A DNA stretch of 64,000 bases from positions 2,666,001 through 2,730,000 of the forward strand of contig NC_006396.1 of assembly GCF_000011085.1 (NCBI RefSeq), read 5' to 3'. The stretch comes from Haloarcula marismortui ATCC 43049. GTDB lineage: Archaea; Halobacteriota; Halobacteria; Halobacteriales; Haloarculaceae. A program made the translations under genes and the position numbers. Of the stretch, positions 28,813 to 32,610 are shown piece by piece. The notes under the pieces were generated by a model that saw only the letters and a list, made by a program, of their open reading frames with translations, was not told the DNA's origin and did no database searches. Numbering within the stretch: the first letter of the stretch is position 1; each line of letters starts with the position of its first letter.

Positions 28813-30258
28813 TTAGCTGTTGCGGTACACCGTCTTGATGTAGCTGAAGAACTCCAGACCGGCGTCACCCTGCTCGCGGTAGGTGTTCGTCGAGGAGCGC
28901 TTGAGGCCGCCGAAGGGAACGTGCAGTTCCAGTCCGGTCGTCTTCTCGTTGACTTTGACCACGCCGGACTCGGACCGCTCGATGAATTCGTTTTCCTCCT
29001 TGATTCGGTCGGTTACGATGCTGGCCGAGAGGCCGTAGTCGATGTCGTTTGCAACCTCGACACCCTCATCGAAGTCGGAGACGGACATGACGGCGAGCAC
29101 CGGCCCGAACACCTCTTCTTGTGCGATGCGCATATCCGGCTCAACGTCGGAGAAGACGGCCGGCGAGATGAAGTTCCCGCCGTCGTACTCCCCACTGGTG
29201 AGTTCCTCGCCGCCCGTTTCGAGGGTCGCTCCCTCCGACTGTGCGACATCGATGTACTCTAGGCTCCCCGCGAGCTCGTCTTCGCTGACGTGGGGACCCA
29301 TGCCGGCCCGGTCAAGCCCGTCCCCGATTTCGAGGGACTCGGCGTAGTCGACAATGGCGTCGAGGAACTCGTCGTACACGTCCTCATGGACGATAGCCCG
29401 GGAGGTCGCTGTACAGGCCTGGCCCGTCCCGCCGAAGGCGCCGGCTCCGACGATGTCAGCCGCTTTGTCCACATCGGCGCTCGGCATGACGACGGTCGGG
29501 TTCTTCCCGCCCATCTCCGCCTGTGCGCGCTTTCCGTTGCTCGTCGCCTGTTCGTAGACGTGCTCGCCGACCGAAGCACTGCCCGTGAACGACACCACGT
29601 CGACATCGTCGTGGGTGGTCAGCTGCTCGCCGACCTCGCTCCCGGGGCCACAGACCAGATTGATAGCGCCGTCCGGAATCCCGGCCTCGTCCAGCGCCTC
29701 GACGATCATCGCGCCGACGGTCGGTGCCTGCATCGCGGGCTTGATGACGACAGTGTTGCCGACCGCAAGTGCCGGTGCGATCTTCCAGGCTGGAATCGCG
29801 ATGGGGTAGTTCCACGGCGTGATGAGCGCCGCAACGCCCATCGGCTCTTTTTTCGTCTGCAGCCCGGCACGGCCGCCGCTGGGCTGTTTGACGGTGCCGC
29901 CGAAGTCACGGGCCTTCTCCGCGTAGTAATAGAAGATATCAATCGCACGCTGTACCTCGCCCTCGGCTTCGCCGAGCGGCTTCCCCTCTTCGCGGGTCAG
30001 CGTCTCTGCAAGCTCGTCTTTCCGAGATTTCAGGATTTCACCGGTCTCACGCAGGATTGCACCGCGCTCCGGACCGGGCATTTCGCCCCATTCGTCTGTC
30101 GCTGCTGCCGCGGCTGCAACCGCTTCGTCCGCGTCCGCCGCCGAAGCCACCGGAACCGTGCTGACGACGTCAGTCTCGTCTGCTGGGTTTGTGACCTCCT
30201 GTGTCTCTCCGCTCCCGGTCCACTCACCGTCGATATAGTTCTCATACGTCTGCGTCAT
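28813..30258 (-). CDS. xacF: Aldehyde dehydrogenase, probable 2,5-dioxopentanoate dehydrogenase
   Basis: 481 residues, typical class-3-like ALDH. NAD(P) site VSFTGSASVG, general-base Glu in QAEMGGKNP, catalytic Cys in GGTGQACTATSR near residue 280, and TPWNYPIAIPAWKIAPAL. In the haloarchaeal oxidative pentose route the last step oxidises alpha-ketoglutarate semialdehyde (2,5-dioxopentanoate) to 2-oxoglutarate using an enzyme of this type. The neighbouring xylose dehydrogenase and dehydratase make that assignment likely, though succinate semialdehyde or other aldehydes remain possible from sequence. Confidence 0.82.
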   Translation of the reverse strand: MTQTYENYIDGEWTGSGETQEVTNPADETDVVSTVPVASAADADEAVAAAAAATDEWGEMPGPERGAILRETGEILKSRKDELAETLTREEGKPLGEAEGEVQRAIDIFYYYAEKARDFGGTVKQPSGGRAGLQTKKEPMGVAALITPWNYPIAIPAWKIAPALAVGNTVVIKPAMQAPTVGAMIVEALDEAGIPDGAINLVCGPGSEVGEQLTTHDDVDVVSFTGSASVGEHVYEQATSNGKRAQAEMGGKNPTVVMPSADVDKAADIVGAGAFGGTGQACTATSRAIVHEDVYDEFLDAIVDYAESLEIGDGLDRAGMGPHVSEDELAGSLEYIDVAQSEGATLETGGEELTSGEYDGGNFISPAVFSDVEPDMRIAQEEVFGPVLAVMSVSDFDEGVEVANDIDYGLSASIVTDRIKEENEFIERSESGVVKVNEKTTGLELHVPFGGLKRSSTNTYREQGDAGLEFFSYIKTVYRNS

Positions 30259-31018
30259 ACGTTTAATTCATCTCATTCCCAATACTTACGCGTTTCCCAT
30301 GCTTCGCTGTGCCGCGTCGTTTGACGGTATGGAACGACCGGCTGATGTCGGTGTGTCACGGCGGCAATGCTGAATAACACGCACCGTCGCCAGTGTAACC
30401 AGCGTCACCGGTCCAACTCGGATCTGATAGCTGAGTTATAACGGACTCGCAATCGAACCTCTGTAAAATAGCTACCGCTGTCAAAACAGCAAACAACACA
30501 GAATCTGTGTGTTGGCAGATCTGTCCCATCGTTCGTGACTGCTTTGCGATGTCTGTGACGCGGAGATACTGTTCTCTCGGCCTTACTGTGTTTCCCGTGA
30601 CGATCGAATTCTGTTATCGTGACACTATGATTGATCGGTTACCTGACTGCTTTTGGTATATAAATCTATCCCATAGTATAACATGTGTATGTGTGTTATC
30701 GGTCTGCTGTTTACAGTCGTACTGCTGGAGCGGTCGTCGCTGGTGAGGAAATCCCCCGTGATTTAATATAGCGATATTAAGTTTATCGAGTAAAACACAC
30801 CGACCAGCGAATCATAGTCAACGCGCTGTAGCCCGCCTAGTTCGCCCGAAATCGGTCAAAAACCTCATCTACCGACACTATTGAGCACTCGACTTCGATC
30901 TCGAAAATATAATATCAAGAAGACAAATATGATAGTGAAATCTGAGTTACCATTCCTATAATTTGCCATTTGGCACTACTCGGCGACACCATCGCCGTTC
31001 CCGGGATTAAACACGGGC
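30259..31018. other. Gene-poor AT-rich interval with small inverted repeats
   Basis: 760 bases upstream of the aldehyde dehydrogenase. A/T content rises from 30600 on. I find no gene: a 79-codon plus-strand frame at 30507 is rich in rare-type codons and has no motif. Two neighbouring small palindromes occur, GCTGT/ACAGC at 30477-30490 and ACACAG/CTGTGT at 30496-30510, and a 25-bp element at 30761 recurs at 32611. Confidence 0.5.
30761..30785 (+). repeat. 25-bp dispersed element, copy 1
   Basis: Reads ATTTAATATAGCGATATTAA followed by GTTTA; TAATAT and ATATTA are perfect 6-base arms around AGCG. Copy 2 at 32611 matches in 21 of 25 positions in the same orientation. It could be a TATA-containing promoter element or a protein-binding site. 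Confidence 0.6.
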
Positions 31019-31192
31019 CTACTCGTTGCCCACTCTTTCGAGCAGCGCGCCAACAACTGCGCTCTTCCGGTGTGAAACCAGCAGATGGCAGTAAATATCG
31101 TCTTCACTGTCCGCACCACAGTTACACAGTGGACATCCGTATGCGTGGCTCTTTGCCGCCTCGGTCGCTCGCTCCGGGATGCTCGCTTGCAT
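31019..31192 (-). CDS. 57-residue C2H2 zinc-finger mini-protein
   Basis: Short gene in the interval between htpX-like and aldehyde dehydrogenase genes, ATG at 31192, TAG at 31019. Codons show the high third-position G/C of haloarchaeal genes, unlike the surrounding AT-rich DNA. The protein begins MQASIPERATEAAKSHAYG and contains CPLCNCGADSEDDIYCHLLV then SH, giving C-x2-C-x12-H-x4-H, the exact spacing of a classical C2H2 finger, with two extra cysteines. The end is RKSAVVGALLERVGNE. Size and design recall Brz, the small zinc-finger regulator of the bop region in Halobacterium. It may regulate neighbouring pentose genes, but nothing shows this directly. Confidence 0.78.
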   Translation of the reverse strand: MQASIPERATEAAKSHAYGCPLCNCGADSEDDIYCHLLVSHRKSAVVGALLERVGNE

Positions 31193-31558
31193 ATGTGAGC
31201 GTATGATCCGTGCCGAACATAGCGGTTTCTAGGACAACTATGTCGATCTCAATGCGTATATAGAGTCTCTCTCACGACCGGACTCTCTTCGGAAGCAACA
31301 CTATCCGGCGACACAGGCTCATCTTCGGTCCAGCGCCGCGATAAGTCCACAGTCTGCGGACCTATCTTGCGCACCGAACGAGACTCTTGTCGGCCATACA
31401 GGCCGCCAAAACCGACATGCTGCGAGCAGCACCTGCCGTGAAAACAATCGCTTTCTCAACTATATTTATCCTATATGCTCTCTGAATGCACATATATGGC
31501 CATAAAATGGCTGGTTTGAATATACCATGTCGCTCCCGGCCGCCGCTCAGCGACGCAG
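31193..31558. other. Gene-free interval
   Basis: 366 bases between the zinc-finger gene start and the protease gene stop. Only frames of about 20 codons are present. An AT-rich patch at 31455-31530 follows the protease 3' end on the minus strand. Confidence 0.5.
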
Positions 31559-32515
31559 CTACCGACGGCTGCTCGGCCGCTCGCTTGATTTCGTGAAATT
31601 ACCATACTGCGCTCTGTCCTGTAGCCGCTGCATTCGCTCGTCTATCGGTGGATGCGTCGACAGGAGGCGCGAAAGCTCGTTATCCGCTTCACTGTGAACG
31701 TATACCTGTCGCAAGAGACCGGGGTCCGGCGTCGATGCTTGCTCGATCTTTGCAAGGGCCCGGGCAAGCCCAACGGGATTCCCCGTTATCTCGACTGCGC
31801 GGTCGTCGGCAGCCAACTCACGACGCCTCGAGTAGCCGAGTAGCAGTAGCGTCACGGCGAAGCCGAGACCGGCAACGACCTGTAGCGAGTACCGCTGTGC
31901 CCGACCAAGCCAGGAGCGCGACCACGACGATGGGTCGCCACGCAGCAATGCGAGCGAACGGGCGATGCCACCGGTTAGCACCACGATGGGGAACAACGCG
32001 AGGCCGATGAGTCCGACAAGCGTCTGGACGAAACTGTACGCGACAGTCTGGACCAGTGCGTCACGGGTTTCTAGATGCGCGAGTTCGTGTGCCAGAAGTC
32101 CCTCGAATTCCGCTGCGGACAACAGCCGGAACAGCCGCCTGTCGACGACGATAGTGCCAGTGCCGCCACCGATGGCGAACGCGTTTGGGACTGGCAGCTC
32201 CGCCAGTAGCAACGTCGGCGTCTCGACGTTCATCTGATCGACAAGCGCATCGAGACGATGGTAGGCCTCTGGTGCACGCGCCCGCGGGAGTTCGACCGCA
32301 TTGAGGGATCGCTTGAGCTGTGCCGTTGCGGCCCAGTAGTTCACGACACCGAGTGCAATCGCTGTCCCGAGAACGAATAGAGCGGCCATTAGCGGCGACG
32401 GGCGGCTGTCCCACACTGGCAGCAGTAGCAGATACCCGACGTATGCCGCCGTAAAATAGACCAGCAGCGAAAACAGGCCGACGACGGCCATGAGTAGCCG
32501 TCGGGTCACAGCCAT
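31559..32515 (-). CDS. HtpX-like M48 family membrane zinc metalloprotease
   Basis: 318 residues from ATG 32515 (MAVTRRLLMAVVG); the longer frame would begin at TTG. Two N-terminal membrane segments, then the protease domain with LLAHELAHLETRD (HExxH zinc site with following Glu) near residue 140, two more membrane segments, and RRRELAADDRAVEITG supplying the third zinc ligand Glu and the conserved E-x-x-A-D. The C-terminal LLSTHPPIDERMQRL is a standard family block. Such proteases degrade misfolded membrane proteins; the active site faces the cytoplasm. It has no evident link to the flanking sugar genes. Confidence 0.92.
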   Translation of the reverse strand: MAVTRRLLMAVVGLFSLLVYFTAAYVGYLLLLPVWDSRPSPLMAALFVLGTAIALGVVNYWAATAQLKRSLNAVELPRARAPEAYHRLDALVDQMNVETPTLLLAELPVPNAFAIGGGTGTIVVDRRLFRLLSAAEFEGLLAHELAHLETRDALVQTVAYSFVQTLVGLIGLALFPIVVLTGGIARSLALLRGDPSSWSRSWLGRAQRYSLQVVAGLGFAVTLLLLGYSRRRELAADDRAVEITGNPVGLARALAKIEQASTPDPGLLRQVYVHSEADNELSRLLSTHPPIDERMQRLQDRAQYGNFTKSSERPSSRR

Positions 32516-32610
32516 GTTCGGCAATAGGTCGCTGCGTGAAAAAATCGCTTCGGTGGCGTCACCGCTGTTCCGTTGTTGGATGCTGATGGCAGTTCCGTAG
32601 TCCTCGGGCT

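Follow-up and report, generated by a model that had tools for sequence, protein, structure and literature searches.

What lies between the aldehyde dehydrogenase and M48 peptidase genes of Haloarcula marismortui? The window, by which we mean the whole stretch of 64,000 bases that was analysed (positions 2,666,001-2,730,000), is part of a contig of 3,131,724 bases in a genome of 4,274,642 bases and nine contigs, and this gap contains a short open frame preceded by a conserved upstream block (Table 1). The original prediction had placed a 57-codon frame at exactly this position, leaving its strand unstated, and had described C-x2-C-x12-H-x4-H together with two extra cysteines; frame and motif are both borne out, with the ligands arranged as C20-x2-C23-x12-H36-x4-H41 and the additional cysteines at C25 and C35. 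The frame also stands out from AT-richer surroundings as had been claimed, its GC content being 0.57 versus 0.48 and 0.52 in the flanks. The strong GC3 bias ascribed to it was not found. GC1, GC2 and GC3 are 0.65, 0.47 and 0.61, and the last of these falls below the 0.70-0.79 of the neighbouring genes, which rules out GC3 bias as coding evidence. Two terminator-like hairpins on the minus strand (window 30475-30514) lie between the finger and aldehyde dehydrogenase genes and could separate their transcripts.

Table 1. Features of the finger locus, in window coordinates
Feature	Position	Strand	Remarks
Aldehyde dehydrogenase family protein (PF00171), downstream neighbour	28813..30258	-	
Zinc-finger gene, 57 codons	31019..31192	-	ATG at 31192, TAG at 31019; product MQASIPERATEAAKSHAYGCPLCNCGADSEDDIYCHLLVSHRKSAVVGALLERVGNE
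C2H2 finger CPLCNCGADSEDDIYCHLLVSH (C20, C23, H36, H41)	31070..31135	-	AlphaFold2 beta-hairpin and helix 30-40; HRKS next, invariant in 23 aligned members
Imperfect inverted repeat ACATAGTTG-TCCTAGAAA-CCGCTATGT around the element	31217..31243	-	Both-side pair changes: 0 among 10 orthologs
Conserved promoter element TCCTAGAAACCGCTAT	31219..31234	-	Starts 42 nt before the finger-gene ATG
TATA-box-like TATATA within CTCTATATAC	31257..31262	-	Conserved in Haloarcula orthologs; centre about 25 nt before the element
M48 peptidase (HtpX-like, PF01435), upstream neighbour	31559..32524	-	

Is the frame a gene? Taken by itself, the spacing motif is slender evidence: across all open frames the window has one C-x2-C-x11-13-H-x3-5-H, and shuffled windows average about 0.35 (7 hits from 20 shuffles). 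The frame is more than chance because of its conservation, as seen in orthologs, dN/dS and a family profile. Intact copies are present in 13 other Haloarcula genomes at 65-93% identity (the named close relatives are Haloarcula species), so that the search for orthologs, whose absence the original prediction had named as one refutation, came out in favour of the gene. Across 14 sequences and 54 codons the median pairwise dN/dS is 0.126, third codon positions vary at 47 of 54 sites versus 17 of 54 for second positions, and the ATG is aligned in all 14. The intact orthologs, the signs of purifying selection, the C2H2 fold model and the profile matches to C2H2 fingers together uphold the proposal of an overlooked C2H2 zinc-finger micro-gene, and we hold it to be almost certain that the frame is a real gene. 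A chance open frame without a product, which the expected frequency of the motif would allow, is refuted in practice by the codon analysis and, given codon-level purifying selection, intact orthologs, invariant ligands and a conserved start and promoter, has a negligible probability.

The boundaries and origin of the gene were also considered. Many orthologs have an open frame upstream of the ATG that would add about 20-110 codons, but indels break this frame in the window gene and at loci L003 and L004, and an N-terminal extension was rejected. A viral or mobile origin was likewise rejected, with no phage match, no relative in viral contigs and only weak PHROG hits. In one genome (G019, locus L028) the copy has decayed, close to the aldehyde dehydrogenase gene that usually accompanies it, and in the plasmid collection one relative is annotated 'hypothetical protein' and another has no annotation.

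The protein belongs to a haloarchaeal family with the core CPxC plus HL-x3-HRKS, which it contains in full. Residues M1, C20, P21, C23, H36, L37, H41, R42, K43 and S44 are invariant across 23 aligned members, and the four ligands, spaced as in the classical C-x2-4-C-x12-H-x3-5-H, are thus retained in 23 of 23. C25 and C35 never vary among the 14 orthologs but do in the wider family, and for this reason are not core ligands. A profile built from the 23 members (A1; threshold E <= 0.001) matches in 117 of 391 Halobacteria genomes; the window gene scores E 2.9e-28, as a sequence that is itself inside the profile, and many members from other families that were not used to build it score E 1e-19 to 1e-14. 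In the AlphaFold2 model (23-row alignment) strands at 18-19 and 26-27 are followed by helix 30-40 and a second helix at 43-55, with mean pLDDT 78, about 90 over the finger (block 88-93) and at least 90 for 23 of the 57 residues; as modelled, this is the beta-beta-alpha fold of a classical C2H2 finger. Among the Foldseek matches listed, 24 of 25 are zinc fingers, almost all of them C2H2, with core rmsd 0.5-1.8 A; the domain being very small, their E values exceed 1 and none reaches significance. Searched by profile, the solved structures yielded C2H2 fingers (GAGA factor, ZNF423, CTCF) at E of about 1e-3 to 5e-3, and a very low E for a designed six-finger protein in that search is a product of repeated weak matches. 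No Pfam or NCBIfam model reaches its cut-off against the window protein (zf-Di19 scores 15.4 bits versus a cut-off of 27.5, and zf-C2H2 is unlisted), although weak zf-Di19 similarity recurs in 22 of the 23 members, and we therefore rejected naming the protein after a known family. The finger is predicted to bind zinc; some predicted Haloferax zinc fingers are reported to bind none (PMC11241148).

Of more interest than the finger gene itself is the conserved element in its promoter. In the 14-ortholog alignment the segment between -76 and -28 relative to the ATG shows 90% identity, on a par with the coding part, with 51-72% on either side. Within it, the Haloarcula orthologs have the core TCCTAGAAAC beginning 41-42 nt ahead of the ATG. 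A scan of 62 family loci, scored by letters matching a 14-letter consensus, found TCCTAG[A/C]AAC at 41-44 nt before an in-frame ATG in all 13 scanned members of the subfamily, which span two haloarchaeal families, with 10-14 of 14 letters matching (in one member 39 nt is a second choice). By contrast, the family's other branches do without it. None of 30 RfcL-linked loci carries it (0 of 30), their scores of 7-9 being at chance level; that branch (L102-L149) has a conserved upstream sequence of its own, about CGACACTATTACGTCG. The extended motif common to 15 representative members reads [G/A]TA(S)(S)NC-TCCTAG[A/C]AAC-NG(Y)(Y)TT.

How specific is the element to finger genes? In the H. marismortui genome the 17-nt form, with up to two mismatches, occurs at this single site; a relaxed match elsewhere in that genome, before an unrelated gene (L186), was judged to be chance and rejected as a second copy. 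The exact form TCCTAGAAACNGCTNT has a single copy in each of 14 genomes among the 146 of the taxonomic family, and 13 of these copies lie before the finger gene. Among 391 genomes, the 14-base TCCTAGAAACNGCTT has four occurrences, three before the finger gene and one with no start codon at the right distance, and the spaced pattern TCCTAGNAACNNNNTTN{25,28}ATG has 19 places versus one for the reversed control. Sixteen of these 19 precede C2H2-finger genes: 13 belong to the subfamily, two to a two-finger protein and one to a finger-PPK1 fusion. The other three precede a DUF7344, a DUF7511 and a calcineurin-like phosphoesterase gene. By a rough binomial estimate the association between element and subfamily is overwhelming, with the limit that related genomes are not independent. 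On a tree of 41 columns, too short for deep forks, the element-bearing rows cluster, with four changes versus 19 with shuffled labels, and may have a single origin. The two-finger C2H2 protein (L177, L180; 50 aa, MxYxCSTC...HHNTCAVC...) has the element at 44 nt and lies above the Pfam zf-C2H2 cut-off. TCCTAG[A/C]AAC also stands 44-48 nt upstream at L059 and L181 (DUF7344) and at L185 (DUF7511); it is absent upstream of 30 other DUF7344 loci, and we rejected it as a general DUF7344 promoter. Our literature search found no paper on this element in haloarchaea, and none for the locus tags tried.

The family divides into branches with different neighbours. One, mostly in the taxonomic family f7, is found immediately downstream of a replication-factor-C-like gene, usually with bioD/bioF-like genes beyond; a Haloarcula branch precedes a quinolinate phosphoribosyltransferase-type gene; and a third, with the signature D[VI]YxHLxxSHRK, includes the window gene. 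Six third-branch loci are beside polyphosphate kinase 1 (L091, L106, L122, L148, L222, L223) and three beside PhoU (L222, L223, L127), and a DUF7260 gene adjoins the finger genes at L099, L106, L122 and L132, as well as at L092. This last locus, whose family member lacks the element, is beside a PstS-type protein, a permease and PhoU. It is because of these ppk1, phoU and pst neighbours that we place the finger family in a phosphate setting. This setting agrees with what has been published for Haloferax volcanii, where small zinc-finger genes and a polyphosphate kinase share a phosphate-starvation regulon, that of sRNA132, in which four CPXCG micro-proteins respond (PMC6560208). At locus L228 (4968-7139, plus strand) a PPK1 carries an N-terminal C2H2 finger (C-x2-C-x12-H-x4-H), with the TCCTAG element at about 4852, some 117 nt upstream of the open frame, and is preceded by a histidine kinase gene. 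In three Haloarcula genomes (contig C1 of G014, G020 and G022) no more than about 2 kb separates PPK1 from a PstS-type gene. In the window's genome ppk1 is on contig C7, apart from the finger gene, and four Haloarcula genomes with an intact finger gene (G031, G003, G005, G016) have no ppk1 match, which led us to reject a link by dependence on PPK1. Nor does the element precede PstS at any of 30 PstS loci in relatives, or occur near the other PPK1 genes that we looked at, and as a general pst or phosphate box it was rejected.

We propose that the genuine gene encodes a single classical C2H2 finger followed by a short second helix, and that it would be expressed from its own promoter, in which the subfamily-specific TCCTAG[A/C]AAC keeps a fixed distance of 41-44 nt from the start. 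The protein would most likely bind DNA as a small transcription regulator and control its own promoter through this element, and the phosphate or polyphosphate response would be a more likely wider role for it than xylose catabolism. A self-regulating DNA-binding protein is the best supported reading because element and finger co-occur across genera and families, a co-occurrence that extends to another C2H2 type and to a finger fused with polyphosphate kinase. DNA binding, autoregulation and the phosphate role are what we infer from these comparisons, and the mechanism taken whole is tentative, falling a little short of an even chance. Against it, genes of other kinds have the element too (two DUF7344, one DUF7511 and one phosphoesterase), and some other factor may be its reader. 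A single C2H2 finger normally reads only 3-4 bp, which likewise counts against the proposed mechanism, as do the separation of the window gene from ppk1, the four genomes with a finger gene but no ppk1 match, and the lack of the element near PstS and PPK1 in the relatives tested. The window gene is a real micro-gene, probably with a regulatory function. Small zinc-finger proteins are abundant in haloarchaea, and to our knowledge targets and DNA sites have been established for almost none. The comparative signal supplies a protein family together with a definite candidate for a DNA site, set at a constant spacing, which makes the binding question testable, and the recurrent ppk1, phoU and pst neighbours point to a specific condition, phosphate supply. 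Should the finger prove to read the element, the classical eukaryotic C2H2 fold would here underlie a very small archaeal regulator with sequence specificity. The more general proposal, that an archaeal family of single-finger C2H2 regulators recognises a dedicated TCCTAG[A/C]AAC in its own promoters and that the same module is tied into polyphosphate metabolism, a natural finger-polyphosphate kinase fusion among its forms, is in our judgement unlikely; if true, the module would be a small archaeal counterpart of the eukaryotic C2H2 transcription factors.

The possible involvement of another factor leads to a reading that we consider possible but doubtful. Here the gene is real and its product binds zinc, and the element is read by a different regulator (an activator, a PhoU-type protein or an alternative TFB), the finger protein being an output of the regulon that acts by protein-protein or RNA contact. 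The presence of the element before the DUF7344, DUF7511 and phosphoesterase genes fits this reading, as does its position. Leaderless transcription is the rule in Haloferax (72%; PMC6560208), and if the transcript here is leaderless, an element at 41-44 nt covers the BRE/TATA region; AGAAAC would fall on the B-recognition site and the T-rich part that follows on the TATA position. A further point in its favour is that pho-boxes at Halobacterium pst promoters are reported to be read by PhoU (PMC6560208). However, the preponderance of C2H2-finger genes behind the placed elements (16 of 19) is unexpected for a general regulator, and the lack of the element near the 30 PstS genes also argues against a reader of this kind.

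Could the finger instead act on its neighbours? The original prediction envisaged local regulation in a pentose-catabolism gap. The gap itself stands up within Haloarcula: in most genomes of the genus the finger gene lies between the M48 peptidase and aldehyde dehydrogenase genes, and the aldehyde dehydrogenase side is kept in nearly all orthologs. In G004 the ortholog lies between a ppk1/phosphoesterase pair and an IclR-family regulator gene, beyond which comes an 87% identical aldehyde dehydrogenase, so that the protease-side linkage fails there, as it does at L006. The regulatory part of the claim fares less well than the gap, and the case for control of xylose or other sugar genes by the finger protein is weak. 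A Brz-like local regulator of the adjoining pentose-catabolism or protease gene would have a precedent in Brz, a small finger that acts on adjacent genes (PMC2253796), but linkage within a genus is expected from descent, and members with the same element in other genera are found beside ppk1 and phoU and not beside aldehyde dehydrogenase or protease genes. We consider such a regulator improbable.

Still less probable is a reading in which the conserved block acts as a 5' leader RNA, transcribed from the TATA-like box with a start near 31234, that controls translation in place of serving as a DNA site. This box, about 25 nt before the element in the Haloarcula orthologs, does leave room for a leadered transcript starting at the element. 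However, the inverted repeat has no both-side pair changes, which favours a DNA site over an RNA hairpin, and with no Rfam match in the block either, an RNA hairpin was rejected. The repeat is not kept in distant members and the TCCTAG core is; because the repeat shows no compensatory changes and is lost in this way, it is the core, as DNA, that has been conserved.

Finally, how does the preferred reading, a small autoregulatory DNA-binding finger, compare with known small zinc-finger proteins? The likeness to Brz (OE3104F) of Halobacterium salinarum that was first suggested holds at the functional level, as between small finger regulators; the motif class differs, and Brz is an analogue rather than a shown relative. 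Like the window protein, Brz has about 60 residues and a single finger, is encoded in an intergenic gap and was first dismissed as spurious (PMC2253796), and each protein has one CPxC-type half-site. The first half-site of the window protein, CPLCN, fits the CPxCx of the Brz-class family motif of Tarasov et al., but that motif has only 2-3 residues between paired ligands (PMC2253796), whereas H36-x4-H41 has four. In terms of motif descriptions, Brz is a C3H finger with one C(P)XCG and one CXXXH (PMC6562870), and the window protein is C2H2 with H-x4-H; moreover, the window gene has no link to bop. The CPXCG micro-proteins of Haloferax volcanii (HVO_0758, HVO_0416 and others) are also haloarchaeal and of the same size and one-domain build, but their definition calls for two C(P)XCG motifs (PMC11241148, PMC10716476), where the window protein has a single CPLC half-site together with two histidines. 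Eukaryotic C2H2 fingers (GAGA factor, CTCF, ZNF423) and the Pfam zf-Di19 and zf-C2H2 families share the C-x2-C-x12-H-x3-5-H spacing and, as far as the model goes, the beta-hairpin and helix; unlike classical C2H2 fingers, the window protein has its own HRKS signature, an extra C-terminal helix and a single finger. The Ros/MucR proteins are likewise small prokaryotic finger proteins, and Ros has a longer histidine spacing and a larger domain than the window protein. As a repressor, Ros binds an inverted repeat (PMC6562870).
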